Shown piece by piece: positions 10,742-38,793 of a stretch of DNA of 47,764 nucleotides (position 1 is its first letter; the number at the start of each line of letters is the position of its first letter). The DNA is from a virus. The position numbers and the translations under genes are program-made. Where the stretch lies: IMG/VR virus record IMGVR_UViG_3300009762_000001, positions 1-47,764 of that record; one strand, given 5' to 3'. The notes under the pieces were generated by a model. That model worked only from the letters and a program-made list of their open reading frames with translations, did no database searches and was not told the DNA's origin.

Positions 10742-11325
10742 TTTGCTCTCTCGCCTAACAACCAAATTATACTTTGTCGCAAGGCACCTGTGTCTATGTT
10801 TCTCCGGCTCGAACCCTTGCGGCGAATTGTAGCGGCGGCGTTCGGCGGCCAGTTGTTGCGCGGGTCTGTGAAAAAATTGCGTACGACGTTCTGCCCAGCC
10901 ATGCCCGCTCGCTTCATGTATGTAACCGCCTGCGCCCTTTTCCCGTCCAACTGCAAACTTGCAGCCTCGCGCAGTTCGGGGATGATCTTGTCTTGATCTA
11001 ACTCGATCGCCGGTTCGATGATCGGCGTCGGCGGCGTGTGGTACGCCATGCTGCCGCGCGACTTGATGTACAACTCCTGTGCCGCATTGTATGACACGTT
11101 GCGGTTCAGCATCATCGCGCCCATGATTCGGCGGGCGTCTATCGTTCTCACGCCCTTGGTTAACAGAAACGCCAATTCTGCATTCGTGATGTCCCCGCCT
11201 TTCCGAGACGGGCTCGCTTCTGGAATCCCGACATAAACAGCTAAGTCCTCGATCCCGCGTATGTTCTTCGCGGCCTTCACCGATCCATCTAAAACAGTCT
11301 TCACTTGGATGTTAGGCTTGAACAC
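10738..11325 (-). CDS. Minor head / neck protein
   Basis: 195 residues from GTG at 11325. Has the layout of HK97 gp10-like or related neck proteins: an N-terminal part (NIRGIEDLAVYVGIPEASPS), a helical middle, and a C-terminal PPNAAATIRRKGSSRRNIDT stretch followed by TGALRQSI, which is frequent in this group. Its neighbours are DUF4054 and a homing endonuclease that begins within its stop. One palindrome copy lies at 10951-10964. Exact role (tail completion versus head closure) is uncertain. Confidence 0.65.
   Translation of the reverse strand: MFKPNIQVKTVLDGSVKAAKNIRGIEDLAVYVGIPEASPSRKGGDITNAELAFLLTKGVRTIDARRIMGAMMLNRNVSYNAAQELYIKSRGSMAYHTPPTPIIEPAIELDQDKIIPELREAASLQLDGKRAQAVTYMKRAGMAGQNVVRNFFTDPRNNWPPNAAATIRRKGSSRRNIDTGALRQSIIWLLGERAK
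10951..10964. repeat. Palindrome CTGCAA-AC-TTGCAG, in neck gene
   Basis: Exact copy; different reading frame from 5232. Confidence 0.75.
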
Positions 11326-18779: not shown

Positions 18780-19462
18780 TTGATCTCGCGTCCATCTCTG
18801 AAGTATTTTCCGGTCGGAACATCATGCGCCTCCAAGAAGCACGCCTTGATGATGGAATCCGCCCCGTGCTCCGCCGAATGAGTGGCGTTGCTTCCCCCCA
18901 TGTCGGTTCTGCACCAGTCCGGACAAGCGGCGTTGCAAAAAATACCGTGCGGCTTCAATGCCGCCGCCAGCTTGAACGTGCTCATCAGCAGCGCAGACTT
19001 GCTCCCCGCGTACGCGATCTGGAAGTCGGTGTGAGCCCGCGCATCGTTGAACTCTCCCGAGCCGGACATGACATTCACCACCCTGGCCCCCTTCGCCAGC
19101 AGGGGGAGGAAGTAGCGCGCGGCCAGGAGCGGCCCGAGCACGTTCGTCTTGTAGACGCTCGTCCAGCGCTCGGGAGTTATTTCCAGCGCCCCAAGGTGAC
19201 CATCGTCTGGAACCCAGTCTGGTTCGGCTGCGTTGTTTATGATCACGTCGAGTTGACATCCCGCCTGCCGCAACCGCAGCGCGGCGTTGTGGATGGAGTT
19301 CTCGCTGGAAACGTCGATGACCAATGGCTTGATGTTCGCCCCCCACTCCTCGCAGCGGACGCGGCGCACGCCCATGTGGACCGCGTAACCGAGACGGGCG
19401 AACTTCCGGCACAACTCCAAGCCGATTCCGCGGTTGCCGCCCGTGACGAGAGCGCTAGGCAA
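18776..19462 (-). CDS. Short-chain dehydrogenase/reductase
   Basis: 228 residues, probable TTG start at 19462, overlapping the radical SAM gene end by eight bases. The classical SDR marks are all present: TGGNRGIG at residues 7-14 for NAD(P) binding, NNAA at 76-79, Asn107, Ser133, and Tyr151-x3-Lys155. The reaction would be NAD(P)-dependent reduction or oxidation of a hydroxyl or keto group; substrate unknown. It is the last gene of a glycosyltransferase/radical SAM cassette and is coupled to the portal gene, so it is transcribed with head genes. Such enzymes in phages often act on sugars or quinoid substrates, but that is inference. Confidence 0.88.
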   Translation of the reverse strand: MPSALVTGGNRGIGLELCRKFARLGYAVHMGVRRVRCEEWGANIKPLVIDVSSENSIHNAALRLRQAGCQLDVIINNAAEPDWVPDDGHLGALEITPERWTSVYKTNVLGPLLAARYFLPLLAKGARVVNVMSGSGEFNDARAHTDFQIAYAGSKSALLMSTFKLAAALKPHGIFCNAACPDWCRTDMGGSNATHSAEHGADSIIKACFLEAHDVPTGKYFRDGREIN

Positions 19463-20447
19463 CTCTCACGTCCTTGCTGTAGCGCATGAGTTTCGGGTCG
19501 CCCTTCATGTCGTCGGTTTGGATGTAAGTTCCGAGTCCAGCTTCCCTCAGCGCGCGCAGCAGCTTGGCGCCGAACTCGACGCTGCTCCTCGGAATCTCCT
19601 GGTCTCCGTAGGGGAACTCGGGACAGACGTAGACCGTCGACGGGCGCAGTTCCCTCATCATCTCCACGAATCCCGAGAGGTCGGCGTCTGTCTTGTTGTC
19701 CGCGGTGATGATGTACTTCGGCCAGAGGTTGCGCGTTCCGCTCGACTGATACCGCCGCAAGTTCTCCGCCACCCTGTTCAGCACGCTGCCCGGAACGCCC
19801 CTGACTTTGGCGAACGTCTCCGGCGTTCCTGCGTCGATGCTGACCGTCAGGTACATCCGGTTCGCCGCCAAGCCGTCGTAGACTGCCTGCTTGAAGGCGA
19901 TGGCGTTCGAGAACAGGCAGACCTGGCCGATGTTGTTGACGAGAAGGTATTCCAGCAATTCCTCGAAACCAGGAAGCAGGGTCGGCTCACCGCCGTTGTA
20001 CTCAATCCACGTCCCCGGATTTATTTTTCCGCGCTTCCGGAACTGCTCGATGAACTCGACGATGCGATCATTCCCGTAGGCGGCTGGCTTGAAGTTGTCC
20101 ATCTGCGTGTACAGGCAGTATCCGCAGCGCATGTTGCAGAACGTCGCGTGGGAGATGTTGAACCCGGAACTGTGGTCCGGGACGCCGAGGCGGCTGAAGT
20201 CCACGTTGGCCGCGTCCGTTTCGAACACCCTGCTGCAGCGCAGGCAGTCCCCGGCAACTGGATCGCCGGCATTTAGGGCGTCGTGCAGCCGCCTCCTGCG
20301 CTCCAATACCAGATCGTAATCGACGCCACCGGACGCCATTTCGGCTGCCGTGACGATCGCCGGACTCTGCCAGGTGTTCGCGCAACAGCAGTGCACGCCG
20401 TCGAAGTCAAATCTGACGCCACTCTCGATGTTCTTGCAGGTCTTCAA
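19455..20447 (-). CDS. Radical SAM enzyme
   Basis: 330 residues from TTG at 20447 (TTGA overlap with the glycosyltransferase stop). Has CxxxCxxC at Cys104, Cys108 and Cys111 (FCNMRCGYC), which binds the 4Fe-4S cluster, and the GGEPT motif that binds SAM. Two further Cys groups lie before it: CCC at 20-22 with HCCCANTW and CLRC at 68-71, perhaps an auxiliary site. The tail after the barrel lacks a clear SPASM-type Cys cluster. Substrate unknown. Coupling to glycosyltransferases and an SDR suggests modification of a sugar, peptide or lipid-linked precursor. A long upstream frame extension is a shadow of the glycosyltransferase gene. Confidence 0.85.
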   Translation of the reverse strand: MKTCKNIESGVRFDFDGVHCCCANTWQSPAIVTAAEMASGGVDYDLVLERRRRLHDALNAGDPVAGDCLRCSRVFETDAANVDFSRLGVPDHSSGFNISHATFCNMRCGYCLYTQMDNFKPAAYGNDRIVEFIEQFRKRGKINPGTWIEYNGGEPTLLPGFEELLEYLLVNNIGQVCLFSNAIAFKQAVYDGLAANRMYLTVSIDAGTPETFAKVRGVPGSVLNRVAENLRRYQSSGTRNLWPKYIITADNKTDADLSGFVEMMRELRPSTVYVCPEFPYGDQEIPRSSVEFGAKLLRALREAGLGTYIQTDDMKGDPKLMRYSKDVRVA

Positions 20448-21058
20448 TTGTGCACCAGCATGACTTCCGGGACGATGCCCCACGGCACGCCGGAGCGGAC
20501 GAGGTGCGCCCCGAAGCTGTAATCCGCCCCGGCGGCCGCATTCTCTGCGACCGGCTTGGCGTGGAACTTGGTGAAGCGCGAGGCTTTCACCAGGAACGAA
20601 GTCTTTATCGTCCTTCCAATCTGCATCTCCCAGACGCGGTATCCGGAGCCGCCCGATGCCGCCGGACCGACGACGGCGCCGCCGCAGACGACGAATTCCC
20701 AGTTCTCCCGGTAAGCGGCGCTGAGCATCCGCTGGCCGAACTCCGGCACGTAATAGGTGTCGTCGCAAGGGAAGCAGTACCAGTTGCCGCTGGCGTGGTG
20801 CCTGATCGCCCACTCCGCGGACCAGTAGCAGTCGGAAATCTTGATCTTGTTCGCCGTGCGATAGTAACGGAAACGCTGGTCCTTCATGCCCGACACGGTG
20901 GACCGATGCCTCGACGCCACGTCCTCGTCCACTGAATTGTCCGTGACCAGCACTTCGAAGTCTTTGTGAGTTTGCGCGGCGAGCGAATAGAGGCAAACGG
21001 GAAGCAACTTGGGACGGTTGAAGCAGGAGACGACGTAACTGATGTCGGGAGAGTTCAC
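20444..21058 (-). CDS. Family 2 glycosyltransferase
   Basis: 204 residues from GTG at 21058. GT-A fold marks: ISYVVSCFNRPKLLPVCLYS at the start, VLVTDNSVDED for nucleotide-sugar binding, and WYCFPCDDTYYVPEF, with the Asp pair in place of the DxD metal motif. No membrane span, so soluble. It lies between the LuxR-type gene and the radical SAM gene. Sugar donor and acceptor cannot be read from sequence. Confidence 0.83.
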   Translation of the reverse strand: MNSPDISYVVSCFNRPKLLPVCLYSLAAQTHKDFEVLVTDNSVDEDVASRHRSTVSGMKDQRFRYYRTANKIKISDCYWSAEWAIRHHASGNWYCFPCDDTYYVPEFGQRMLSAAYRENWEFVVCGGAVVGPAASGGSGYRVWEMQIGRTIKTSFLVKASRFTKFHAKPVAENAAAGADYSFGAHLVRSGVPWGIVPEVMLVHN

Positions 21059-21062
21059 GGCG

Positions 21063-21293
21063 TCACTCGATGATCCCCGTCCGCAAGGCCAAGGCGATGG
21101 CCTGAGAAGTGGTGCGGACTCCGAGAATCTCGCGGACGATCTGCATTTGGTTGCGCGCGTAAACTTCGCTGTGGTGCAATTCTTTGACCCGCGTGCCGTC
21201 TGCTATCGAACGGAGCCAGCGGCGGTCGCGCTCGCTCAGTTCGAGGCGGAAATTGCTCTGGGGGCCGTAGACGTGATTGATAGTCGCGCTCAT
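21063..21293 (-). CDS. LuxR-type helix-turn-helix protein
   Basis: 76 residues from ATG at 21293 (AGGTGA seven bases upstream); earlier in-frame starts at 21323 and 21332 are possible. The C-terminal 55 residues (LELSERDRRWLRSIADGTRV, then VYARNQMQIVREILGVRTTSQAIALAL) match the GerE/LuxR DNA-binding domain with its four helices. There is no receiver or ligand domain, so it is a stand-alone regulator. It sits inside the glycosyltransferase cassette and could control it or the head genes. Confidence 0.75.
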   Translation of the reverse strand: MSATINHVYGPQSNFRLELSERDRRWLRSIADGTRVKELHHSEVYARNQMQIVREILGVRTTSQAIALALRTGIIE

Positions 21294-21315
21294 CGCCCTG
21301 TCACCTTTGACGGTT

Positions 21316-21450
21316 TCAACCATTGCAATCATGGATGTATTCGCCAGCGCGGCAGTAGGCTTCCCGGCGGCTGTGGACTTTGCCGAATTCGCGGCCGCAC
21401 TTCGAGCAAACCACCAGGAAGCCGAACGCGAGTTGAATGAGTTTCAGCAC
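21316..21450 (-). CDS. 44-residue Cys-containing microprotein
   Basis: Starts at GTG 21450, inside the last codons of the glycosyltransferase gene. Reads VLKLIQLAFGFLVVCSKCGR with later YCRAGEYIHDCNG: a hydrophobic start followed by CxxC and two more Cys plus His, a likely zinc ribbon. Its stop is followed by the LuxR-type gene. Function unknown. Confidence 0.6.
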   Translation of the reverse strand: MLKLIQLAFGFLVVCSKCGREFGKVHSRREAYCRAGEYIHDCNG

Positions 21451-22097
21451 AGGCCCGCCGCCTTCCTGAAACCATCCGGCAACTGACCAACCGGAACGGA
21501 TGGCCAGTTTGCTTCGCCTGGATTCCGCTTCGTGCTGCGGTCGTTCAACGTGGCCACGAAGTTCCCATCGCCGTCCTTGGTGACTATCGCGCGCGAATCC
21601 CGCGCTGGCTTGATGAACGCCGCGTCTTCGATGAACTGACACTTCTCGTCCCACGGATGAGTCAAAGCGTAATCCGTGCGGTAGATCAGGTTCGCCCCCC
21701 AGATGTAACCACGGTAGTAGCTGGCCTTCTTGGATGCGAAATCGTACCAGTATGCGCGGTCGTATCCCGCAACCTCGGCGCCGTTCTGCATCAGGGCAAC
21801 CTGGTCTGATATACGGTGCGGTCCGCTCCAGTCGTCGGCATCGAAGTGAACGATGTATTCCCCACAAGCTACCTTCGCGCCAAAGTTCCGTTTCTCGCTC
21901 AAGTTCCTTCCGGGAAACGGAAAGTAGCGGCAGTGGTCGATGCCGGTCAGCAGGTCGGCGATCGGCTCGTCTCCGGAGTCCACAACCACCAACTCGCGGT
22001 CCTCATAGTCCTGCGAGAGATACGAAGGGATGGCCAGAGTACGGGCCAATTCGCGAATGTTCCTGTGGCAGAGCAAGACGGTGACCAAAGGCGTCAC
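21444..22097 (-). CDS. Family 2 glycosyltransferase (second)
   Basis: 217 residues from GTG at 22097, overlapping the stop of the Mu F-like gene (GTGA). Marks: TVLLCHRNIRELARTLAIPS at the start, RELVVVDSGDEPIADL, then EYIVHFDADDWSGPHRISDQ with a clear DxD (FDADDW) for metal and donor binding, and DAAFIKPARD later. Not closely alike to the other glycosyltransferase of the cassette. Acceptor unknown. Confidence 0.85.
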   Translation of the reverse strand: MTPLVTVLLCHRNIRELARTLAIPSYLSQDYEDRELVVVDSGDEPIADLLTGIDHCRYFPFPGRNLSEKRNFGAKVACGEYIVHFDADDWSGPHRISDQVALMQNGAEVAGYDRAYWYDFASKKASYYRGYIWGANLIYRTDYALTHPWDEKCQFIEDAAFIKPARDSRAIVTKDGDGNFVATLNDRSTKRNPGEANWPSVPVGQLPDGFRKAAGLC

Positions 22098-22888
22098 GCG
22101 GCCACCGCCATCTGCTCCACGCCGGCGATGCGGCGGAAAGCGGCCAAGGTCATCATCCGGATGGCTCCCGACCTGAACACTTTGTGCGGCCATTCGACCT
22201 GCTCAAGCCTAAGCAGCGGTTCGCTGTAGCACCTGCAGTTCCAAATGTTTCCGCTGTTGTACGGAGCGGGAGGATTCTTCTCTCCGAGCAGCCGTTCCGG
22301 CGAGGGTGGATCATTCCAACTGACCAGCACGCCCTGCATCTTGCGGTGGGACAGACGCACCCGTTCGTCTTGCGAAGTCCGCCACACGTACCAGTTCAGG
22401 TCCAACTCCTCAGACCGCGCCTGCGTCAGCGCCGACTGCGCCTTGGCCGTCTCGGTCCGTGCGATCCTGCGCGCCTGCCAGCGGGCGATGTGCTTCAGCA
22501 GCGATGGCTCGTCCGCGGGACGCTGGCCCTCTACCGCTCGCCTCTGTTGCTCTTTCGACGCCATCAGCGCCACGTTCTCGGGCAGAGTCTTGATCAGCAA
22601 GGCGTTCTGTTCGACCAGCTCCCGAACCCTGTCACCTACCGGCCCCTGGAGTTCCGCCTGGAGCATCCGGTAGATGTCGCGCCCGCGCATCACTTCCCTG
22701 CTCGCCTGGCGCCAGGTCCGCGCCGTGTCGTGGAGGCGCTGGAGGACCATCCGCTCCGCCGCTTGCCAGCTCCACAGGTCGAGGAACCGTTCTCTGTCCA
22801 CGAGCGGCACGCGGAACGAGCGCTGAGCGATCTCGAACAGCAACTTCGCGTATTCCTCGGCGGCGCGTTTAGACTGTTGCCAGTTCAT
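22094..22888 (-). CDS. Mu F-like minor head protein
   Basis: 264 residues from ATG at 22888. The end has RTSQDERVRLSHRKMQGVLV and the NCRCYSEPLL motif near the C-terminus, characteristic of the Mu gpF / SPP1 gp7 family of head morphogenesis proteins. The N-terminal part is helical and basic. In related phages it follows the portal; here the cassette separates them. The start codon lies in the 8-bp sequence CAGTTCAT (plus strand) that is repeated at 23802-23809. Confidence 0.83.
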   Translation of the reverse strand: MNWQQSKRAAEEYAKLLFEIAQRSFRVPLVDRERFLDLWSWQAAERMVLQRLHDTARTWRQASREVMRGRDIYRMLQAELQGPVGDRVRELVEQNALLIKTLPENVALMASKEQQRRAVEGQRPADEPSLLKHIARWQARRIARTETAKAQSALTQARSEELDLNWYVWRTSQDERVRLSHRKMQGVLVSWNDPPSPERLLGEKNPPAPYNSGNIWNCRCYSEPLLRLEQVEWPHKVFRSGAIRMMTLAAFRRIAGVEQMAVAA

Positions 22889-25807: not shown

Positions 25808-26047
25808 TCACGAGAACGCTTTGACCAGCCAGTCGTACCAGTGGCGGTGGTGGGCGGGAACCTCAAGGGGCGCCTCCACCTCTCCGCTCTGCACCTGCGC
25901 CGCCTCCGGCATCTCGATCGGCTCCGCCGGCAACTCCACGTTCGGCAAGTCGGGCGCGCCGTGAATTTCTAACTCCACGTGGTGCACGTCGTTCCCGAGC
26001 GGAACGACCTTCTTGACGCGGACCTTGCGGGTTTTCTTCTTCACCAT
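25808..26047 (-). CDS. 79-residue protein, unknown function
   Basis: Overlaps the protease gene stop by seven bases. N-terminus very basic (MVKKKTRKVRVKKVVPLGND), middle Pro/Glu-rich, C-terminus aromatic (HHRHWYDWLVKAFS). Could bind nucleic acid or membrane. Not recognised. Confidence 0.55.
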   Translation of the reverse strand: MVKKKTRKVRVKKVVPLGNDVHHVELEIHGAPDLPNVELPAEPIEMPEAAQVQSGEVEAPLEVPAHHRHWYDWLVKAFS

Positions 26048-26865
26048 TTTCCACCTGCGTGCGTAATTTTGAGGTCGGTCGAACCGTCGGCCGCATCAAT
26101 GACTGAAGTCACCATCCAGAAGAACCCTTTAAGCCCCCAACTGTCAGACCAGCTGTTCTGGATCAGGAACGCCGGCGGGCAAGCAGCTGGGCGCAGTGTG
26201 GGAATCGCGCCGAGGTCGTAGCCAACGGCGAGCACCTCGTGGCCGCCCAAGACGGATTCAGTCGACACGTTCGGGTTGTAGATGCCAGTGGCCGCGACTT
26301 CGTCCGACTCCAGCGAATCGTAGACCGTGAAGCCGACCAAAACGGGCCACGGCACCGGATCGCCGAGCACAGACTGCATGACCTGCGAGCCCGTCAAGCC
26401 GTGGTAGGCTCCCATGCGATACAACCCTGCGGCCGCGTCCTGCGCCGCGGTAGGCTGCGTGATCTGCCCGGCGACGTAAGGGTCGAGCGCCAGCGGGCAG
26501 AAGCCCTTGAGGATCGCTACTTCGCACGCCGTTTCGCCGTCGGAACCGGCGTCGCTCGGGAAATTTCCGTCTGTGATCAGTTCCCATTCGTAAGTGTACT
26601 GCGCCGAGAACTGAGGGTTTGGCGGAGCGCCCTTCGGGAGCCAGAACTTGGCATACTTACGGAATATCCATTCTCCCGCCGAGGCGCTGGAATTGCCAGT
26701 GCACGAACCCTCGGCGCCCTGGTTCTTGATCGGACCGCACCATGAGCGCAGGTCTACCACGGAGGGGAGATTGAGAGAGACGCGGGACAGCATCCTGTGA
26801 GCGGGAAGCGGCTCGGGTATGCTGCGGTCGAAGCGGTGGCCTTTTGCGGTTACGATGACAGCCAT
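26041..26865 (-). CDS. Papain-like (C1) cysteine protease
   Basis: 274 residues. The full papain active site is readable: Gln49 and Cys55 in IKNQGAEGSCTGNSSA, His209 in GGHEVLAVGYD, Asn237 in FLIQNSWSDSWG, with the expected six-residue Gln-Cys spacing. There is no obvious signal peptide or inhibitory prodomain. It lies just ahead of the terminase genes, separated by a 79-residue protein and preceded by a 32-residue membrane peptide. It may be packaged and act on the host cell surface or matured head; that is inference. Papain-family enzymes are unusual in phages. Confidence 0.85.
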   Translation of the reverse strand: MAVIVTAKGHRFDRSIPEPLPAHRMLSRVSLNLPSVVDLRSWCGPIKNQGAEGSCTGNSSASAGEWIFRKYAKFWLPKGAPPNPQFSAQYTYEWELITDGNFPSDAGSDGETACEVAILKGFCPLALDPYVAGQITQPTAAQDAAAGLYRMGAYHGLTGSQVMQSVLGDPVPWPVLVGFTVYDSLESDEVAATGIYNPNVSTESVLGGHEVLAVGYDLGAIPTLRPAACPPAFLIQNSWSDSWGLKGFFWMVTSVIDAADGSTDLKITHAGGKW

Positions 26866-29249: not shown

Positions 29250-29954
29250 TCAGACGCCGCTACTGGCAAGGGGTTTGCCATCGGTGACTATCAGCTTTTG
29301 TTCCAAAAGTCTTTCCGCGTAATCCGCAACACAATTGACCAGTTCGGGAGGGATGGTCGCCGCCCGCGCTTTCTGGGTGTCTTGCCGTTTTTGCGATTTG
29401 CTCGATCCGGTTGCGAGAATCTGTTCGCGGTTCCATGCGCCGAAACCCTTGTTTATTCCTTGCGGCATCAGCGGCGGTACGCCCGTTCCCCAAAGGTGAT
29501 AGGGTCCACAGTGATGAACGGATCTGCCGACGAAATCCTGCGCCCGTCGCACGTTCTCAAGAATGTATGGCACTCCGCTTTCTTCGCAGATTGACCGCGT
29601 ATGATTGAACAGGCGAATTCCCAACTCCGGGTAAGGCGGGTCTGGATGAAAATGCCGCATCCCAAAAACGGCGAACTGCTCGCACGGGGGAGAGGCGCAG
29701 ATGAAATCGAAATCCTCCCAGAATGGACCATGCTCATCCCAGATATAGGTGGCTATTTCAGAAGCTGAATTTCTTGGCGCGATTCGCAACACATCGGCCA
29801 TCAGAAAAATACAGCTTTCCGGTATCTCTAGTGGCTCAATCAAGTCCACTCCCACACACTCCCATCCCCTCGCCGCAAACGCCCGCGACCATCCCCATCT
29901 TCCTGAGAAGAGGTCCAAAAGACGGTACTTTCGTTTTCCTCCGCCCGTCCTCAA
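29250..29954 (-). CDS. DNA (cytosine-5) methyltransferase
   Basis: 234 residues from TTG at 29954 (AAGGA about ten bases upstream). Motif I DLFSGRWGWSRAFAARGWEC binds SAM, the catalytic PPC is in CASPPCEQFA, and motif VI is ILENVRRA. Shorter than classical enzymes (about 300-400 residues), and I cannot place motif VIII or a typical target-recognition region, so it may be a compact phage form. It would protect phage DNA from host restriction or control expression. Confidence 0.8.
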   Translation of the reverse strand: MRTGGGKRKYRLLDLFSGRWGWSRAFAARGWECVGVDLIEPLEIPESCIFLMADVLRIAPRNSASEIATYIWDEHGPFWEDFDFICASPPCEQFAVFGMRHFHPDPPYPELGIRLFNHTRSICEESGVPYILENVRRAQDFVGRSVHHCGPYHLWGTGVPPLMPQGINKGFGAWNREQILATGSSKSQKRQDTQKARAATIPPELVNCVADYAERLLEQKLIVTDGKPLASSGV

Positions 29955-30676: not shown

Positions 30677-31376
30677 TGTTTCGTTTCCACTTCAATCGCA
30701 TCCAGCCGCTCGCGCAGCATTTGTAATCCTTCAATGCTCCCTCTATCGCGTCTTGACGACTCATGTCGGGATCGCCTTCCTTTTCGCGGTAGTAATCACA
30801 AACTGAATCAATCGCGGCGAGTTGGCTAGTCGGGAAAACTACGTTCTCAATGTCCTCCAGATGCAAATCAGGAAGCGCTTCGTTCACTTCTTTCATGCAC
30901 TGCGCTTTCTTTTTCTTGGACGCAGCTTTAACTTGTGGATTCTTTCGATGCTCCCGTGAGGTCACTTTCTTGGCAATCAGCTTCGCCGTTTCAACCGGCA
31001 TCTGACTTTGTTCTTCGTCTGTGAAATCTGGCGAGAGATTCTTGTGCAGGGACATGTAATCCATAATCGACCGAGCACTCTTAGGCGCTGCGTTTTCTAG
31101 CCAGTCAGTCATGGTTTTATAGCCGCCGTGCTGGAAAAGTTCCCCGTCTTTGACCATCTGACAATACTTCGCCAGTTTGGGCCATCCTGTGACCACAGAC
31201 TCAACCCTGCGAACCTCGCGGTCGATCGCTTCAAACTGTTGAGCGGGGTCAGAATTGGTTGAGAGAAAAAGTTCCAAGCCTACAAGATTCGACTGCAAAT
31301 TTGCGGCTGGCAGTTCTAGCCTTGGATTCTCAGGGACGATGATCGCAACAGCGTGACGCTTGCGCTTGAGTTTCAT
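30597..31376 (-). CDS. Unknown DNA-associated-looking protein
   Basis: 259 residues, ATG directly after the stop of the split gene (TGAATG). Segments WLENAAPKSARSIMDYMSLH and PVETAKLIAKKVTSREHRK suggest helical, basic DNA-binding parts. The last 30 residues overlap the HNH gene in another frame and may not be ancestral. One imperfect palindrome copy at 31293-31306. Confidence 0.55.
   Translation of the reverse strand: MKLKRKRHAVAIIVPENPRLELPAANLQSNLVGLELFLSTNSDPAQQFEAIDREVRRVESVVTGWPKLAKYCQMVKDGELFQHGGYKTMTDWLENAAPKSARSIMDYMSLHKNLSPDFTDEEQSQMPVETAKLIAKKVTSREHRKNPQVKAASKKKKAQCMKEVNEALPDLHLEDIENVVFPTSQLAAIDSVCDYYREKEGDPDMSRQDAIEGALKDYKCCASGWMRLKWKRNNDNSVHGPCAQEVQGARHIAALRGRE
31293..31306. repeat. 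Palindrome, one mismatch
   Basis: CTGCAAATTTGCGG; one base off. Confidence 0.6.
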
Positions 31377-31654
31377 TCATGCTCCAGACACACCGCAATC
31401 CTCGGGGGATTTAGGGGGTGTGGCCCTTGATCTTGACTCTTGCCCCTTGAGGCGGATAGGTACTCTTTTACTCCCCGTTGACCGGGACGTATGCGTTTTG
31501 CGCCAGAACATCTGGCCCGTTGCCCGGATTAAGAAGCCTTGTCCGTCCCATAACCTGACCCAAATGCGCGGCCCGTTGTTTTTCGGACAGGGGCAGAACT
31601 CCCCTAAGCAGTGCCGTGAAGCAACCGTGGCTCTGCCCATGGGCTCATAGACGA
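31377..31654 (-). pseudogene. 3' part of phage gene split by the IS element
   Basis: From the left target-duplication border to TGA at 31377. After removing the IS and one copy of ATTGTTTT, the 5' part (33448-33592) continues in frame into this part, giving one 140-residue protein of 423 bases. This part contains ASRHCLGEFCPCPKNNGP, a Cys-rich stretch. It has an internal ATG at 31640 that might still be translated as an 87-residue remnant, coupled to the next gene. Part of it resembles 46790-46860 (see findings). Confidence 0.75.
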
Positions 31655-31662
31655 ATTGTTTT
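31655..31662. repeat. Target-site duplication, left copy
   Basis: ATTGTTTT directly outside the left terminal inverted repeat of the IS; identical to 33448-33455. Confidence 0.9.
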
Positions 31663-31715
31663 GGGAATTATATACATGACTCGCTAACCCTTTCAGAACA
31701 AAACGACTAAAGTTC

Positions 31716-31744
31716 TTGACAAAATGCAGCGAGTGATCTACTAT
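31716..31744 (+). promoter_or_regulatory. IS promoter
   Basis: TTGACA (31716-31721), 17 bases, TACTAT (31739-31744), followed by AAGGAG and the ATG at 31769. Drives the four IS genes. Confidence 0.65.
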
Positions 31745-31768
31745 AAAGCCAGTTAAGGAGTTCCAAAG

Positions 31769-31972
31769 ATGGGCGAAACTCAAACGATTGTTCCGTACTG
31801 GTTCTTAATGAGAGCCGCTGGACACCTGACTGGTGGCGGCTGCGAAGGTAACGTATACAACGGCACCTGTCCGCTCTGCAAAGCACAAGAGATTCTAATG
31901 AACGCAGCGATGCGGATTGGCTATGTCGGAACCTTGCCCTACGAAGTGGGGGTTGGTAGCTATGCCCGCTAA
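31769..31972 (+). CDS. IS passenger ORF 1, small Cys protein
   Basis: 67 residues. AAGGAG eight bases before the ATG. Contains GGCEGNVYNGTCPLCKAQEI, a possible zinc site (CPLC). It overlaps the next ORF by 11 bases. No function known to me. Confidence 0.7.
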   Translation: MGETQTIVPYWFLMRAAGHLTGGGCEGNVYNGTCPLCKAQEILMNAAMRIGYVGTLPYEVGVGSYAR

Positions 31973-32378
31973 ACACACCGAAACCGTGACGAAGCCTACT
32001 CCCCCGACAGCGAGGGACGTTGTGACGTGGTGCCACGGCGAGGAAAGCGACTGGATCATTAAGGGCACGCAACTCATGCTGGATCGCTATGTGGAGCACT
32101 CCGAACTGGCAGAGAAATACAAGGAAATGTGCGGGAAGCTTCGCGAGTACGTCGAATGGCGTCATCTCGGCCTGGGCGGAGAGAACCTCGAAGAGCTTGT
32201 ACTGGCGCGAGCGAAAGAACTGGAGAGCATGCTCGCGCGAGTAATCGGCTGCCTGAATCGCGTTGAGGTGATGGCTCCGCATATTGCGGAACTGAAAACT
32301 GAGTCGCACAAACTGATGCCACAAGTCGAACGCACGCCTTTTATACCCGCGCCCGTGGGCTGTGGGCCGGGAGAGTAA
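31962..32378 (+). CDS. IS passenger ORF 2
   Basis: 138 residues from ATG at 31962. Helical, charged protein (EHSELAEKYKEMCGKLREYV; LEELVLARAKELESMLARVI) that may form a coiled coil. It ends three bases before the transposase ATG. Not recognised. Confidence 0.7.
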   Translation: MPAKHTETVTKPTPPTARDVVTWCHGEESDWIIKGTQLMLDRYVEHSELAEKYKEMCGKLREYVEWRHLGLGGENLEELVLARAKELESMLARVIGCLNRVEVMAPHIAELKTESHKLMPQVERTPFIPAPVGCGPGE

Positions 32379-32381
32379 GCC

Positions 32382-33308
32382 ATGAGCAAAAGCACGATCA
32401 GCACCTTCCAGCTTTTCGAGATGTTCCCGACGCCAGAGTCGGCACGGATTTACCTCGAATCGCGGCTCTGGCCCGATGGCCCGTTCTGTCCTGAGTGCAA
32501 GAGCCGTGAGCGCATCGGCAAGCAGCCCAAGGTTGGCTTCTACCGCTGTAATGCTTGTTCCCTCGATTTCACGATCCGTACCGGGACGATTTTCGAGCGC
32601 AGCCACATTCCCCTGCACAAATGGCTCTACGCCATGTACCTGCTCGTTACCGCTCGGAAGGGCATCTCTAGCCTGCAACTGGGAAAAGAGATCGGAGTTA
32701 CCCAGAAATCGGCATGGTTTATGCTCCAGCGTCTCCGTGAAGCGTGCGGTTCTGGCGATGACCTCGACAAGTTGCGCGGCATCGTCGAAGTAGACGAATG
32801 CTTCATTGGCGGGAAGGAGCGCAACAAGCACGAGCACAAGAAGCTCAAGGCTGGACGTGGATCGGTTGGCAAGACGGCTGTCGTAGGACTCAGGGAACGC
32901 GGCGGACGCACTGTAGCAATGCCGATTGAGGCTACCGACATGGCCGCGCTGCAATCGGCTGTCCATGCCAACGTCGAAGTAGGTTCCACGATCTTTACGG
33001 ATGAGGCGACCGGGTACGTCGGCCTTGACGGGCTGTTCTTTCGGCACGAAGCCATCAATCACACGGCGGGAATCTACTCCGAGAACGGCGTGAGCACGAA
33101 CAGCATCGAAAGCGTCTGGGCTGTGCTCAAGCGCGGAGTGTATGGCGTTTACCATCAAGTTTCCAAGAAGCATTTGCATCGTTACGTGGATGAGTTCACG
33201 TTCCGCCTGAATGTCGGCAACGTGAGCCGTCACACGTTGGAACGGCTGGACTCGTTCGTAGTTGCGGTAGTCGGAAAGCATCTCACCTACAAGGAACTGA
33301 CAGCATGA
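32382..33308 (+). CDS. IS1595-family transposase
   Basis: 308 residues. N-terminal zinc ribbon with CPECKSRERIG and YRCNACSLDF, a middle helical part, and the ISXO2-like catalytic domain: Asp in GIVEVDECFIGGKE, Asp in STIFTDEATGYVG and the late NSIESVWAVLKRGVYGVYHQ motif. Complete and intact, so likely active. Confidence 0.93.
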   Translation: MSKSTISTFQLFEMFPTPESARIYLESRLWPDGPFCPECKSRERIGKQPKVGFYRCNACSLDFTIRTGTIFERSHIPLHKWLYAMYLLVTARKGISSLQLGKEIGVTQKSAWFMLQRLREACGSGDDLDKLRGIVEVDECFIGGKERNKHEHKKLKAGRGSVGKTAVVGLRERGGRTVAMPIEATDMAALQSAVHANVEVGSTIFTDEATGYVGLDGLFFRHEAINHTAGIYSENGVSTNSIESVWAVLKRGVYGVYHQVSKKHLHRYVDEFTFRLNVGNVSRHTLERLDSFVVAVVGKHLTYKELTA

Positions 33309-33442
33309 AAACTCCCCCAGAGCTAGACCGAATCACAGATCGCGTGCTGGCCTATCGCCCGAAACCCAAGACGAAAGCGGCCAAGCGCCGGAAGCGAAGG
33401 AATCAATATGCGAAGCGTCGAAGGAGCGAGTCATCTATATAA
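33305..33442 (+). CDS. IS passenger ORF 3, basic microprotein
   Basis: 45 residues; its ATG overlaps the transposase stop (ATGA). Begins MKTPPELDRITDRVLAYRPK and ends in an Arg/Lys-rich tail. It reaches into the right terminal repeat. Could bind DNA as an accessory factor. Confidence 0.65.
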   Translation: MKTPPELDRITDRVLAYRPKPKTKAAKRRKRRNQYAKRRRSESSI

Positions 33443-33447
33443 TTCCC

Positions 33448-33455
33448 ATTGTTTT
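33448..33455. repeat. Target-site duplication, right copy
   Basis: ATTGTTTT directly outside the right terminal inverted repeat. Confidence 0.9.
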
Positions 33456-33465
33456 GGTGAGTCAT

Positions 33466-33509
33466 TAGCAGAGACAAATTCTTCGAGGTGGGGGCCGGTG
33501 TCTCTGCTA
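33466..33509. repeat. Perfect 11-bp inverted repeat beside the IS
   Basis: TAGCAGAGACA (33466-33476) and TGTCTCTGCTA (33499-33509), 22-base loop. Lies within the 5' part of the split gene, ten bases outside the target duplication. Confidence 0.6.
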
Positions 33510-33588
33510 GAAGTTTCCGGCACGCCCACACTCAAAGACATCCCAAGCATATCACAGCCGGGGAGATTGTCTAACAAAAAATCGCGCA

Positions 33589-33738
33589 TCATTCCATCTC
33601 CACCATCGTCCCCGCCGGGACAGCAATCGCGGCCTTCCAGATCAACTGGCAGGCTTCGAGGCGCGGCCCGAGTTCCACGGCCTTCGTCCGCCACAGGTAG
33701 TCGTGGGCGTGAACGAGGATTATGAATACACTTTTCAT
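33589..33738 (-). CDS. 49-residue protein, unknown
   Basis: ATG at 33738 with GGTGAG six bases upstream. Begins MKSVFIILVHAHDYLWRTKA. Overlaps the genes on both sides by four bases. Function unknown. Confidence 0.5.
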   Translation of the reverse strand: MKSVFIILVHAHDYLWRTKAVELGPRLEACQLIWKAAIAVPAGTMVEME

Positions 33739-33815
33739 AAACTCACCAGCCTGTAATTGAACGTCCTGCCAGAAAGCCGCTGGCACTGGATCACGTGGCC
33801 CTTCGCGCGCATCAT
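33735..33815 (-). CDS. 26-30-residue basic microprotein
   Basis: ATG at 33815 overlaps the endonuclease stop (ATGA); an earlier ATG at 33827 is also in frame. Reads MMRAKGHVIQCQRLSGRTFN and ends overlapping the next ATG. Accepted because both ends are coupled to neighbours. Confidence 0.4.
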   Translation of the reverse strand: MMRAKGHVIQCQRLSGRTFNYRLVSL

Positions 33816-34345
33816 ATGTGTTTCCATGTCTGTCGTCCTAGAATTCCAACGACATTTCGTAAAGCCAAATTATATTTTTCAGCAAGATACTTTGCGGTAA
33901 CTTTGCGCGGGATATATTCTGCCCTGATTTTCAACACCGTAGCATTATCGGTCTTAGATGAAGGGCGTTGTTCACCGCGAAGCGTTCGGTCGCGTCCTTT
34001 TCTTCTCATGTCAGCCAGATTGTCGGCTTGGGTGCCCTCAATGATATGCCGCGGGTTGAAGCAAGGTGGATTATCGCATGTGTGTAAGCCGTTCGGCGTT
34101 GGCCAATGCCCGTGAGTAAAAAAGAATGCAAGTCTATGCACTGGAACTGATCTACCTTCGTACCAAACTCCGCCGTAATCTCTGTAGCTCTTACTGAATG
34201 GCCAAAGCAAACAATCATCACTCTTGTGGTTCGCGATACTTCGTTTAAGATACTCAAGAGTCCCTTTCCACATGGGATTGCGCGGGCCACACACTTTGCG
34301 TTTAGCTATATGTTCGGGAGTCTGTTTATACCCAAATTTCGTCAT
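33812..34345 (-). CDS. HNH homing endonuclease with NUMOD-like repeat
   Basis: 177 residues; TTAGGAG upstream of ATG. The HNH core is GLHTCDNPPCFNPRHIIEGT with the following QADNLADMRRKGR; first His is in VPVHRLAF. N-terminal TPEHIAKRKVCGPRNPMWKG is a NUMOD3-like segment. The C-terminus holds a helix-turn-helix-like DNA-reader (TAKYLAEKYNLALRNVVGIL). AT-rich. A free-standing mobile endonuclease. Confidence 0.88.
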   Translation of the reverse strand: MTKFGYKQTPEHIAKRKVCGPRNPMWKGTLEYLKRSIANHKSDDCLLWPFSKSYRDYGGVWYEGRSVPVHRLAFFFTHGHWPTPNGLHTCDNPPCFNPRHIIEGTQADNLADMRRKGRDRTLRGEQRPSSKTDNATVLKIRAEYIPRKVTAKYLAEKYNLALRNVVGILGRQTWKHI

Positions 34346-34380
34346 AAAATACTCCTAACTGGAGGCTATGGAGTCGAGAG

Positions 34381-34596
34381 TCATATTTTCGCCGATCTTT
34401 TCGATTTGTAAAGCTGTTTGCGGAGGTCTTTGATGTATACAGTCAAATCCTTCACTGCAATACGCGAGAACTCCCGCGATTCGATAGCCTCTTTCAATCT
34501 ATCTTCCAACGATCTCCATTGCGGTCGTGGCAAAGGATCGCCAGTTATCGGGTCTAATCCTTGACGTATCATGTCTGCGAAGGCTTTACAGGTCAT
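34381..34596 (-). CDS. 71-residue basic helical protein
   Basis: ATG at 34596 with GGAGAG five bases upstream. Ends in a Lys/Arg-rich helix (VYIKDLRKQLYKSKRSAK). Unknown function. Confidence 0.6.
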   Translation of the reverse strand: MTCKAFADMIRQGLDPITGDPLPRPQWRSLEDRLKEAIESREFSRIAVKDLTVYIKDLRKQLYKSKRSAKI

Positions 34597-34768
34597 AATC
34601 TCTCCAGCACTTCCGTTCTCACTTCCCTCTGCGCCTGATGCCTGTTCTCGTCGACCAGCGCGGCCACAAGCCCTTGCAGACTAGGCGGTGGATGTCGGAT
34701 TCTTTTTCGTCAACCACGCTATCCGTATGAGTCGCTGGTTTCTCAGGATGGAAATAGCAATTGCTCAT
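34593..34768 (-). pseudogene. Small Cys/His ORF, apparently frameshifted
   Basis: ATG at 34768 overlaps the upstream stop. Starts MSNCYFHPEKPATHTDSVVD, a likely metal-binding start, and reaches TGA at 34619 after 49 codons. A second frame (LQGLVAALVDENRHQAQREV...) reads as good protein and ends at TGA 34593, overlapping the next ATG. The two parts may once have been one gene of about 60 codons, joined by one extra or missing base near 34690. Alternatively a short 49-residue gene. Confidence 0.4.
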
Positions 34769-35037
34769 GACTTCACCAGTTCAATGTGGCTTATTGCGAC
34801 CGATGCCGAATATTTGCCGTCATCTGAGCGAACATACACGCTTGCCGTACCGCCGATCTCGTATACACCGTCGTACTTGATCGTTCCCAATCGGCCCTCG
34901 CCTTCGCGGATTCCGCTCCAAAACCGAACTCGCGTTCCCTTAGCCACAGTCTCAAGACTGACCATTTTAAAGTGTCCCTTCTTTGCGCCGCTTTTGGATT
35001 TGATTACGGACCCGCTTGTACCAGTAGTCCGTATCAT
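34765..35037 (-). CDS. 90-residue small beta-barrel-like protein
   Basis: ATG at 35037 (ATGA overlap). Basic N-terminus (SGSVIKSKSGAKKGHF) then a beta-rich segment VAKGTRVRFWSGIREGEGRL, TIKYDGVYEIGGTASVYVRS resembling an SH3-like barrel. Possibly nucleic acid binding. A longer frame to 35310 is a shadow. Confidence 0.6.
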   Translation of the reverse strand: MIRTTGTSGSVIKSKSGAKKGHFKMVSLETVAKGTRVRFWSGIREGEGRLGTIKYDGVYEIGGTASVYVRSDDGKYSASVAISHIELVKS

Positions 35038-35288
35038 GCTTTCGCACGCTTTCTTCCTTCTTGAAACGCCCTCACAGTCTCGGGCCGGACCTTCGCCACC
35101 GCGTCGATCTTCTCGATCTCGAACCTGAACAAAGTCCTCTGGCAGTCGACCGGCATGTGTCTCCGCTCGGAATACCAGTGCGCCACTTCGTTCCCGGACA
35201 CGCCGAACATCAAGCCCAGCTTGTCGAAGCTCAACCCCGTGCGGTCCTTGAACCGCTGGATGCGTTTGTTTGCAGTGCGGTCTATCAC
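35034..35288 (-). CDS. Helix-turn-helix (Cro/CI-like) protein
   Basis: 84 residues from GTG at 35288, overlapping the helicase stop (GTGA). The segment LSFDKLGLMFGVSGNEVAHW followed by YSERRHMPVDCQRTLFRFE fits an Xre-type HTH. A transcriptional regulator in the replication block. Confidence 0.65.
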   Translation of the reverse strand: MIDRTANKRIQRFKDRTGLSFDKLGLMFGVSGNEVAHWYSERRHMPVDCQRTLFRFEIEKIDAVAKVRPETVRAFQEGRKRAKA

Positions 35289-36607
35289 TTTTCGTACCAA
35301 CTTTCTGCATTAGATTCTCCGCTCTCTGCCGCTCTCGGGAGGAACACGAGCTGCTTGTTGTCGAACATCACTGGAACTGAGTCCACGGGGCCTTCCCTCT
35401 GCTTTGCCACGATGATCTCATCCATCCGCGTAAACCCTGTTTTCTTGTCCAGTGGGCGGTAGACGAGCAGCACCAAGTGGGCGTCGTTCTCCACGTCTCC
35501 CGATTCCTTCAGGTCGAACAGTACCGGGCGACGTTTCATCTTCTCCGCTGGCCGTCCGAACTGCGAGACGCCAATCACCACGACCTTCTGCTTCTTGGCG
35601 AGTTCGCGCAGCGCGGCAGAACATGAAGAAATCCTCTGCGCCCGGTTGTCGCCTTCGCCTTGCATGAGTTGGATGTAATCTACGGCCACGAGTTTTATCC
35701 CATGCTTGCGGATCATCATCGTGGCGTGCGACGTGAACTCGCCGGCGGTCACTGACGAAGCATCGTTCACCCAGAGTGGCCACTGATCTAGCACGGCTTT
35801 GGACTCCATGAACATCGCGCGCTCGCTCGGCTCCATCCGCTTCGGGTTCCTCAACTTCCATCCTGTAACCGCGCCTTTCGTCACGAGCGGGATGCAACGA
35901 GAAAGCACGGCCTGCTTAGTCATCTCCTGGGAGAACAGCAAGCACGGTATTTCAGCTTCGCAGTTCGCGGCGATGATCTGAGTGACGAACGGCGTCTTGC
36001 CTTCGTTCGTCCAGCCGCCTATGACCACGAACTCTCCGGGATGGAGTCCTCCGGTCAGTTCGTCCAGGTCGGTCAAACCGCTGCTCAGCGCCTTCGACTT
36101 CGCCGCGCCGGTCGAGAGCTTCATCACGTAGTCGTAGAACACGTCCGAGAACTCGCTGAGCCGCAGGGAATCCGAACTCTGGCCGTACTCCGCCATCTCA
36201 ACCAGTTTGTCGTAGGTCACGGACAGCACGGATTCGTTGTCCTCGGATGCATCCCGCGCCTGCAATAGAGCAGACTCGAATTCCTGAATGATCTTCCGGC
36301 GGTGAGCTGCCCGGATGACTTCTTGCACGTGCGGGGCGATCTTGCGCGTCCCCGCGGCGTTGAAGTCCATGATGTACGCCGTCAGCCCGTGGTTCTTCGG
36401 GAACATGTCCGCCAGTATCACTTCGTCGACCTGCTCTCCGCCTTTGACGCGCCGCTCGATGGCCTTGAAGATTTCCCGGTGGTAGCTGTTCTGGAAGTGC
36501 TCCGGCCGCAACCGCTCGGCGAAGCAGAAAAGTTCGTTGTCCAGCAAGACTGACTGCAGGACGACCTTCTCCGACTCCATCGCTGCCTGCTGATCGACTA
36601 GCTGCAC
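35285..36607 (-). CDS. Replicative DNA helicase, DnaB family
   Basis: 440 residues from GTG at 36607. N-terminal primase-interaction domain (ESEKVVLQSVLLDNELFCFA). RecA-like domain: GLTDLDELTGGLHPGEFVVI, Walker A GGWTNEGKT (Trp-Thr-Asn-Glu in the loop is unusual), Walker B IKLVAVDYIQLMQG, and the later VIGVSQFGRPAEKMKRRPVL with the arginine-rich region. Unwinds DNA at the phage fork. It follows the initiator-like gene. Confidence 0.9.
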   Translation of the reverse strand: MQLVDQQAAMESEKVVLQSVLLDNELFCFAERLRPEHFQNSYHREIFKAIERRVKGGEQVDEVILADMFPKNHGLTAYIMDFNAAGTRKIAPHVQEVIRAAHRRKIIQEFESALLQARDASEDNESVLSVTYDKLVEMAEYGQSSDSLRLSEFSDVFYDYVMKLSTGAAKSKALSSGLTDLDELTGGLHPGEFVVIGGWTNEGKTPFVTQIIAANCEAEIPCLLFSQEMTKQAVLSRCIPLVTKGAVTGWKLRNPKRMEPSERAMFMESKAVLDQWPLWVNDASSVTAGEFTSHATMMIRKHGIKLVAVDYIQLMQGEGDNRAQRISSCSAALRELAKKQKVVVIGVSQFGRPAEKMKRRPVLFDLKESGDVENDAHLVLLVYRPLDKKTGFTRMDEIIVAKQREGPVDSVPVMFDNKQLVFLPRAAESGESNAESWYEK

Positions 36608-37413
36608 TCTGCCCTCCCGTACTTGTTCAGCGTTCCGGTTTCGTAGCGAGGAAGACGAGAAATATAAAAGGCAGGTTGCTCAGCTGGTGCGTGATCCTTC
36701 GACTCGTGATAGTTATCGAGCATCGCGACCAGCCGTTTCTCAGTAAGTGTCTTATCTTCTGAGAGTAACCGCTTGAGGTTTTTCCCAGCAGTGCCGTTGA
36801 AGTGGGGCGGAGCTTTTACGTAGTGCTGGTGAGCTTTAAAGATTAACTCTGTGAATCTTTCGTACCGTAAGTCTGCTGTAGTCTTGTGCCCGTTCCCGTT
36901 CTTGGGAGCAGGAGGGTTGGAATCGAGTTTGAAATCGTCGGTCGGAAGCGCAGCTGACGACAGTTGTTCTTGAGTATTGTTATAAGTCTTGTTAGGGGTA
37001 CATTCCTGTCCGCTATTTTTGTAAGAAATGTCCGCTTTCCCGTGTAGTTTTTGTCCGCTTTCGATAGCGGATATTTTGTCCGCTATCGACAAAAGAGCAT
37101 ATTCGTGATGCCGTCCAACTTTCTTTCTAGAGATCAACTTTGCACTGAGCAATTCGTCCATCGAACGTCGTACTGTCCGCTCGTCTATGCCGATCATCTC
37201 TGCCAGTAACTCCTGAGATGGAAAGCATTGTTGACTACTGTTGTTGGCCATTCGACACAGAGCCAAGTAGAGCATGAACGTAGTAGATTGGAGGCGCTTG
37301 GCGAAGAAGTCGAAGACGGCATTAGATACCCAGAGGAACCCGCCTCGGCGGTCTCGTACTTCAAAAGTTTCTTCTGCAAAACTATCAGCAGAAGTGCGAT
37401 CATCATTTTCCAT
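36598..37413 (-). CDS. Replication initiator-like winged-helix protein
   Basis: 271 residues, ATG start. The N-terminal 110 residues (WVSNAVFDFFAKRLQSTTFM, LCRMANNSSQQCFPSQELLA, IGIDERTVRRSMDELLSAKL) have the winged-helix layout of phage initiators such as the DnaD/lambda O class. C-terminal part helical and basic; the linker is Asn/Pro-rich. Probably loads the DnaB-type helicase encoded next. Confidence 0.75.
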   Translation of the reverse strand: MENDDRTSADSFAEETFEVRDRRGGFLWVSNAVFDFFAKRLQSTTFMLYLALCRMANNSSQQCFPSQELLAEMIGIDERTVRRSMDELLSAKLISRKKVGRHHEYALLSIADKISAIESGQKLHGKADISYKNSGQECTPNKTYNNTQEQLSSAALPTDDFKLDSNPPAPKNGNGHKTTADLRYERFTELIFKAHQHYVKAPPHFNGTAGKNLKRLLSEDKTLTEKRLVAMLDNYHESKDHAPAEQPAFYISRLPRYETGTLNKYGRAECS

Positions 37414-37430
37414 GTGTTAGACCTTTTTGT

Positions 37431-37474
37431 GCTCTCTCTGGACTGGGAGGTCTAGGCCCAGCCCGAGAGAGAGC
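37431..37474 (-). promoter_or_regulatory. Stem-loop in the leader of the replication operon
   Basis: Nine-base arms GCTCTCTCT / AGAGAGAGC enclose a second stem CTGGG / CCCAG. Lies between the promoter at 37502-37530 and the ATG at 37413. Could be an mRNA regulatory structure or an attenuator. Confidence 0.5.
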
Positions 37475-37501
37475 GAAGTGTCACTTGGCAGCGACAGTTA
37501 A

Positions 37502-37530
37502 ATTCTAAAATTCTATCAGACAAGAGTAAA
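37502..37530 (-). promoter_or_regulatory. Promoter of the replication operon
   Basis: Minus strand TTTACT (37530-37525), 17-base spacer, TAGAAT (37507-37502), same hexamers and spacing as at 22892-22920. In a 154-base gap between genes. A CTGCAANNTTGCAG copy lies 56 bases upstream (37586-37599). Confidence 0.6.
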
Positions 37531-37567
37531 GCCCTTTTTCACCGAGCAAACACGCGGCCTTCACGCG

Positions 37568-38326
37568 CTATGGAAATTCGTGAATCTGCAAGTTTGCAGG
37601 TATCAGCGCTTTTCCAGCTGCGGGAGTGAGTGCCGAGAACTGCTTGACGAACAGCTTGGTCCCGACAGCCTTGCACTCTGCCCGAAGATTAATCAGCCAC
37701 TCCAGTTTCATCGGTCGGCGAGCGTGCCCACTTTCTCCTCCGAAGATGATCCAGTCCGGAGGCACGTTGTAGTAAAAGCCAGACAACGGACTCTGCACTA
37801 TCGAGACCGGACCGAGCGCCGGTTCGTAGCTGATCCAGTTCACTCCGCCGCGCTGAATCGAGACTTCGCAGATGATCGGGTAGCGGATGTCGTAGAACTC
37901 TTGATTTTCAGCCGTCGCTCCGTACCACACGTTGTTGTGCTTGAAGTCTTTCGGCAAGTAACGCTCGTAACGCTGCGGCCGCTTCGTGAGCAGTTGCCAG
38001 ATGAGGTTCGGGGTCTGGTCGATCAACGTCCACAGTCGCTCCCTCTGGCCTTCGGGAGCCTCGTCGTCCATTATGTCGCACATCGAACCGCAGAACACTT
38101 TACGCTTGACGCTTTCCTTGGCGGCTTTCTTATCCCAGCGCAAAGGATCGTTCCAGTAATGATCGCTCATAATCCGGCGTGACTCGCCTTTGCCCCAGTG
38201 TGCTCCGCCGACGCGCTTATCAAAGGCTTCAGCATAGCAGTGATCGCAACCTGGAGACACTTTCGTGCAACCCCACCACGGATTGAACGTCGCGTCTGTC
38301 CAAGAAATGCCAGTTGTCTCTGCCAC
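37568..38326 (-). CDS. Phage Gp37/Gp68 (DUF5131) family protein
   Basis: 252 residues; GTG at 38326 overlaps the previous stop by one base (TAGTG). TTGISWTDATFNPWWGCTKV, SPGCDHCYAE with CxxC, VFCGSMCDIMD and the later LLTKRPQRYERYL, IIFGGESGHARRP are hallmarks of this phage/bacterial family, radical SAM-like in fold. Biochemical role not established. One palindrome copy near the 3' end. Confidence 0.85.
   Translation of the reverse strand: MAETTGISWTDATFNPWWGCTKVSPGCDHCYAEAFDKRVGGAHWGKGESRRIMSDHYWNDPLRWDKKAAKESVKRKVFCGSMCDIMDDEAPEGQRERLWTLIDQTPNLIWQLLTKRPQRYERYLPKDFKHNNVWYGATAENQEFYDIRYPIICEVSIQRGGVNWISYEPALGPVSIVQSPLSGFYYNVPPDWIIFGGESGHARRPMKLEWLINLRAECKAVGTKLFVKQFSALTPAAGKALIPANLQIHEFP
37586..37599. 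repeat. Palindrome CTGCAA-GT-TTGCAG, upstream of replication promoter
   Basis: Exact copy near the end of the DUF5131 gene, 56 bases from the -35. Confidence 0.75.
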
Positions 38327-38571
38327 TACGAATCCCCCTTCAACTCTGATTCCCCGTGAGAGATGAACTCTCGCAGAATCTTCGCCCCGCATTCCCAACT
38401 GCAAACCTCTTGCGGCTCATCGGCAGCTTGATACGGCAGAGCACTGGACGGTGGAACCATTGCGATAAAACGCGGCACATCCTGCTCGCGTCCGATTCCA
38501 ATGCGCGCGAATATCTGACTCTGTTTCAACTCTTGTCCGCAACCGTCACAGGTGATGATTTCGATTCTCAT
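38326..38571 (-). CDS. 81-residue zinc-binding protein
   Basis: ITCDGCGQELKQSQIFARIG near the start gives CxxC and VCSWECGAKIL later gives CxxxC, a likely zinc site with two separate Cys pairs. Coupled to the DUF5131 gene. Function unknown. Confidence 0.6.
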   Translation of the reverse strand: MRIEIITCDGCGQELKQSQIFARIGIGREQDVPRFIAMVPPSSALPYQAADEPQEVCSWECGAKILREFISHGESELKGDS

Positions 38572-38793
38572 TCAGCAATCCCCCTTCAACTCCCGGATGC
38601 TGGCCGAGACCTGCTCGGGATGGTCAGCCGGGTCGATCCGTTCATAGCAGGCGTCGCACACGACGTCCCACTCCGATTCGGGGACGGCGCCGAAGTAAGA
38701 TTCCATCTCGGCTGTCGCGTCGGCGCGCGTCCAGGTTCCGTCCGTAACGAACTCGAACGTCTCGCGGCACAGGGTGCAGGTGAAAGTGTTCAT
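38572..38793 (-). CDS. 73-residue zinc ribbon protein
   Basis: ATG at 38793, overlapping the upstream stop. FTCTLCRETFEFVTDGTW and VVCDACYERI give CxxC...CxxC, a pattern common in small phage proteins that also carry an acidic middle. Possibly regulatory. Confidence 0.65.
   Translation of the reverse strand: MNTFTCTLCRETFEFVTDGTWTRADATAEMESYFGAVPESEWDVVCDACYERIDPADHPEQVSASIRELKGDC

Follow-up and report, generated by a model that had tools for sequence, protein, structure and literature searches.

Members of the IS1595 family duplicate 8 bp of target DNA, have ends starting with GG, encode a transposase with a DDE_Tnp_IS1595 domain, and usually contain the transposase gene only; an N-terminal zinc ribbon is found in all the seven ISfinder groups but IS1016 (Siguier et al. 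2009, as reported in PMC8101967). Transporter IS (tIS), which carry passenger genes, are known in the family, namely tISCpe8 and MTnSag1 (PMC5704250) and ISNha5 (PMC11891212). IS are very rare in virulent phages, temperate phages acquiring them from their hosts, according to a survey of sequenced phages (PMC8136500).

The element described here lies in a window of 47,764 nt (the whole stretch of viral DNA analyzed, positions 1 to 47,764 of IMG/VR record IMGVR_UViG_3300009762_000001). Like other IS1595 members, it features 8-bp duplications, GG-starting ends, a zinc ribbon and the DDE_Tnp_IS1595 domain; unlike them, it also carries a pair of cargo genes and a conserved ORF of 45 aa, and belongs to a clade residing mostly on phage contigs. 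With tISCpe8, MTnSag1 and ISNha5 it shares an IS1595 transposase, passenger genes between the ends and 8-bp direct repeats. Those units reside in bacterial chromosomes or plasmids and carry resistance, mobilisation or regulator genes, whereas the cargo of the window lineage is phage-like, is different in almost every element, and tends towards DNA modification. Small accessory genes also move among phages as morons or through homing endonucleases; in the present case the vehicle is instead a DDE transposase, whose units show exact ends and target duplications. The IS of temperate phages are likewise transposases in phage genomes tied to gene flow between phages, but have been read as host IS gained in lysogeny (PMC8136500), while a phage-enriched, cargo-bearing clade is found here. 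IS1595 transposition units with passenger genes are thus already known, and the new variant is the phage-enriched lineage with changing cargo. Descriptions of the enrichment in phages, of rapid turnover of cargo within a constant frame, of the accessory ORF and of the tendency towards DNA modification were not found in the literature searched, which consisted of open-access papers and did not extend to ISfinder.

The features of the locus are the following (L004 and L165 are contigs carrying the occupied and the empty site, respectively).

31377-31662, minus strand: interrupted 140-aa phage gene, 3' part; continuous in L165, split identically in L004
31655-31662, no strand: target site duplication, left copy, ATTGTTTT; exact match to 33448-33455, single copy in the L165 empty site
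31663-33447, plus strand: complete IS1595-family cargo-carrying element, 1785 bp, defined by ends, duplication, transposase and empty site
31663-31685, plus strand: left terminal inverted repeat, GGGAATTATATACATGACTCGCT; 22/23 against the right end
31667-31696, minus strand: outward promoter-like site, CTGAAA-18-TATAAT, 10/12; reads through the left end to the interrupted operon
31716-31744, plus strand: inward promoter-like site, TTGACA-17-TACTAT, 10/12; closes the shared leader and precedes the cargo
31769-31972, plus strand: cargo gene 1, 67 aa, open frame
31962-32378, plus strand: cargo gene 2, 138 aa; alternative 153-aa reading from 31917
32382-33308, plus strand: IS1595-family transposase, 308 aa, N-terminal zinc ribbon and DDE domain
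33305-33442, plus strand: conserved basic accessory ORF, 45 aa; overlaps the transposase stop (ATGA), its own stop lying inside the right end
33425-33447, minus strand: right terminal inverted repeat, inverted copy of the left end, 22/23
33448-33455, no strand: target site duplication, right copy, ATTGTTTT; exact match to 31655-31662
33456-33592, minus strand: interrupted 140-aa phage gene, 5' part; continuous in L165

The original prediction, made from the window alone, had called 23-bp terminal inverted repeats with one mismatch, an identical 8-bp direct repeat and an intact transposase, and all three were recovered. The ends, which start with GGG as befits the family, differ at one position only, the consensus of the left repeat across the element family being GGGAATTATATACTTGACTCCC. 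Among 4124 pairs of identical 8-mers set at IS-like spacing in the window, the ATTGTTTT pair encloses inverted ends matching at 22 of 23 positions, the runner-up ends matching at 14. The 308-aa transposase matches both DDE_Tnp_IS1595 (PF12762, 1.6e-42) and NCBIfam NF033547 (5e-60), and its residues 17-60 match Zn_ribbon_IS1595 (PF12760, 2e-7). The description as an IS only was correct as to the element, but overlooked two cargo genes and the conserved small ORF. In the definition given in PMC8101967, single-gene content is the one testable feature in which the element departs from the family; membership stands, since published tIS of the family deviate likewise. Neither the 67-aa nor the 138-aa cargo protein matches a Pfam, PHROG or NCBIfam family, and no relative of the latter was found in viral contigs and INPHARED except in the same phage. 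Both are orphans.

Removal of the IS and one repeat restores, as predicted, a frame of 423 nt running from 33592 to 31377 (140 codons and a stop), which overlaps the upstream gene by ATGA and abuts the downstream one. The insertion had been proposed to be complete, recent, and to split a phage gene, and a search of related phages for the uninterrupted 140-residue protein had been suggested. The protein is encoded at L165:5578-6000, between flanks 100% identical to those of the window. The site is exactly empty in L165, a contig taken from a 33-kb record: a single copy of ATTGTTTT is present, and no position differs from the window across 31108 to 31662 and 33456 to 38788 (~5.9 kb). L004, a 12.6-kb contig from a second assembly, has the same insertion, and is 99.98% identical to the window over 10.3 kb. 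The insertion is therefore real and young, younger than the first substitution in ~5.9 kb of flank. That it might be an assembly chimera, or an old shared insertion, has a negligible probability: the former is at odds with the second assembly and is excluded in practice, and both conflict with an exact empty site in flanks devoid of substitutions. No other relative of the 140-aa protein was found in the viral collection, which suggests that the gene is narrowly distributed and apparently dispensable. A recombination breakpoint located exactly at the IS, hinted at by a first BLAST comparison, was rejected, the identity to L165 being 100% on both sides and breaking only at ~31107. In the alignment of L165 to window positions 30687-38788, the ~5.9 kb of full identity are followed, left of 31107, by DNA ~94% identical, with changes mostly at third positions, and then by unrelated sequence, a pattern indicating mosaicism of the phage genomes, with the IS site inside a recently exchanged tract.

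In searches with the transposase, viral contigs yielded 237 relatives and genome contigs 452, the best 80 of each being used; a second viral scan was carried out with an alignment as query. Both ends were recognised in 192 matches. An exact 8/8 duplication flanks 145 of these, a 7/8 duplication two, and the others match at 6 positions or fewer, so that true ends separate cleanly from chance. At least 120 unique elements with both ends and target repeats were identified (at least 77 on viral contigs, at least 43 on genome contigs), mostly 1.4-3 kb in size. Target duplications are 84% A+T and conform to the pattern HWWNNWWD. Relatives of the transposase in sequenced phages are only three, all distant (38% identity at most), and those in plasmids do not exceed 43% identity.

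Ends, transposase and often the 45-aa basic ORF are conserved among elements, while the intervening content differs almost everywhere. The small ORF has the consensus LDxIxDxVLAYRPKPK followed by a basic tail, a strict pattern recognising it in 56 of 117 elements. In the subgroup of the window element (L004, L005, L007, L008 and L009) its pN/pS is ~0.11, against 0.08 for the transposase, values denoting purifying selection; the ORF is therefore a real gene of the element. In L102 (5915-7204), its N-terminal motif is fused in-frame to a C5 DNA methyltransferase.

Cargo ORFs number 237 and fall into 198 clusters. The cargo lies upstream of the transposase gene in 41 elements, downstream in 59, on both sides in 17. 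Elements with transposase DNA at least 95% identical share cargo in 7 of 7 pairs, those in the 80-95% range in 18 of 97. In the window's subgroup, sequence is shared over the initial 80-98 bp and again from roughly the transposase start onward, and five unrelated cargos are set between a common end and promoter and a common transposase. Cargo thus differs among closely related transposases, and therefore no single cargo is required, as in the definition of tIS passenger genes. A rare instance of cargo recurring in several elements is a membrane-anchored family of ~250-276 aa, without Pfam match, located downstream in L061, L040 and L109.

The inward promoter-like site of the window element is also present in L005, L007, L008 and L009. 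Sites matching at 10 or more of 12 positions were found in the first 150 bp of 41 of 97 clade elements, and of three in shuffled sequence. The sequence of the outward site is common to the subgroup elements as well; at a guess, this site might relieve polarity on downstream phage genes. In a few elements the promoter is overlapped by a striking internal repeat of the end in inverted orientation, which would suggest autoregulation; overall, such copies were barely above shuffled sequence, and the idea was dropped.

Elements 99.7-100% identical reside at three different targets, in flanks without similarity (L179, L180 and L181), and a second such case of near-identical elements in unrelated flanks is provided by L058 and L060. 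One contig bears two different elements of the lineage, L005 and L010. As judged from the L165 empty site and from near-identical units at different targets, as in L179-L181, the whole unit appears to transpose, as expected of a tIS.

A tree built from 191 transposases places 115 of the 118 viral sequences, together with 31 genome sequences, in a single clade (SH-aLRT 97), and viral and genome labels change a minimum of 22 times, against 50-68 in shuffles, the differing habitats of the two collections and the use of the best 80 matches per search being possible confounders of this enrichment. In a sister-group control, with the transposase of the host-borne L140 as query, no viral relative above 55% identity was found; its best full-length matches reached 49% at most, and for the most part led back to contigs of the window's clade. 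Random ORFs drawn from beside viral copies include terminases, head and tail genes. Genome-borne copies are often found among ordinary chromosomal genes; the lineage is therefore phage-enriched, not phage-exclusive, and the notion that such copies are confined to prophages was rejected, many having an ordinary chromosomal context.

That the element is simply an ordinary IS of the host which entered the phage genome during infection or lysogeny, with the phage as passive carrier and cargo as incidental as in known IS1595 tIS, is an unlikely explanation. It would fit the occurrence in bacterial genomes, many from Acidobacteriota and in chromosomal context, of relatives at 60-74% identity among the matches listed, and the surveys placing transposases mainly in temperate phages, presumably as host-derived DNA (PMC8136500). 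Yet among the matches listed the copies nearest to the window's transposase (92-99% identity) come exclusively from viral contigs, and genome copies reach 74% at best; clade enrichment and sister-group control, near-identical elements in unrelated viral flanks, and cargo homologues that are ordinary phage genes all argue against it. The ends, the target duplication, the move to a new site, the constant core, the turnover of cargo and the occurrence in unrelated phage contexts are observed, and the window element is a complete, recently inserted, cargo-carrying IS1595 tIS of a phage-enriched clade with swapped cargo. The fuller account, in which movement, expression and benefit would follow the steps proposed below, is probable. 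One transposase clade, mostly on phage contigs, crosses unrelated backgrounds and swaps cargo faster than the transposase diverges.

Among the profile matches in the cargo, DNA modification and counter-restriction predominate, with C5, N4/N6, D12 and Dam-type methyltransferases, PAPS-reductase-like proteins, Mom, Lar and one ASCH protein, the assignment of Mom, Dam and Lar matches to loci being our own reading of the sequences. Mom of phage Mu and Lar of the Rac prophage both counteract restriction. Counted by profile and catalytic motif, viral elements carry eleven methyltransferases (L010, L029, L041, L058, L060, L066, L083, L178, L186, L187, L211), six PAPS-reductase-like proteins (L064, L079, L169, L170, L172, L239), one Mom-like protein (L032) and one Lar (L082). 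Modification or counter-restriction ORFs are 19 of 141 in viral cargo and 4 of 138 in flanking DNA (p=0.002), a comparison in which the PAPS-reductase-like proteins are counted as DNA modification by guess; for methyltransferases alone the enrichment is not significant (p=0.11). The majority of cargo, that of the window included, has no recognisable function. Acidic, DNA-mimic-like cargo as a general trend was rejected, the median pI being 6.9. Homologues of cargo are found also as ordinary genes outside elements, the cargo methyltransferase of L010 being 49% identical to the product of window positions 29250-29954 (compared via L004), which supports capture from the phage gene pool.

It is conceivable, and in our view improbable to a marked degree, that cargo methyltransferases serve the element and not the phage, either methylating the ends to regulate transposition or as parts of selfish restriction-modification units. 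The transposition of IS10 and IS50 is known to be controlled by Dam, which provides a precedent, and in distant genome-borne relatives (L130, L136, L143, L157) methyltransferases sit beside HindVP, BglII, PDDEXK_11 and Vsr, apparently as whole restriction-modification systems carried as IS cargo (the protein-match assignment to these loci is inferred). Most elements, however, carry no methyltransferase, so none is needed to move, and the recognised cargo of viral elements also includes Mom and Lar.

In the reading preferred here, that of a phage-enriched IS1595 tIS, family knowledge would assign DDE transposition to the transposase, which would move the unit between genomes that come to share a host cell, with duplication of 8 bp at an A+T-rich target. 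The promoter at the left end would drive one transcript per unit, encompassing cargo, transposase and accessory protein; the cargo would be taken from the phage gene pool and swapped between leader and transposase gene. Copies might persist if some cargo benefits the phage, most plausibly against host restriction, and the 45-aa protein might have a role in transposition. It is possible, if short of probable, that the lineage is a phage-adapted counter-defence shuttle, with an interchangeable cargo slot behind the IS promoter filled with methyltransferases, Mom, Lar and many small proteins without known function. If so, these small proteins, including the two orphans of the window, would be candidate anti-defence genes; two exact ends would flag candidate anti-restriction genes for direct listing, and genes would have a definite, homology-independent route between unrelated phages.

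The viral record, linear and possibly incomplete, encodes portal, major capsid, terminase, tail and cement genes. The remark that IS are rare in virulent phages agrees with surveys (PMC8136500), but the element is no one-off, given at least 77 complete relatives on viral contigs, and this phage may or may not be virulent: a match to a Gp3-like recombination directionality factor was found, and no integrase, among the 25 of 30 Pfam families listed for the genome. The genome-borne transposases closest to that of the window, among the matches listed, are from Acidobacteriota, which points only tentatively to the host.

Two GIY-YIG and one HNH endonuclease genes (9920-10765, 15969-16724 and 33812-34345), all in DNA of lower G+C, are probably homing endonucleases, so that mobile genes of several types would reside in this genome. 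Short-chain dehydrogenase, radical SAM and family-2 glycosyltransferase genes (18776-22193) lie within the structural module, between portal and Mu-F-like head genes, a metabolic or sugar-modifying cassette unusual for a phage. A 24-bp unit, repeated 5.3 times with 97% identity, extends from 47638 to the very contig end (47764), encodes AWENSSVV-like repeats on the minus strand, and may be the reason why the assembly stops there. A papain-family (C1) cysteine protease gene is located at 26041-26865.
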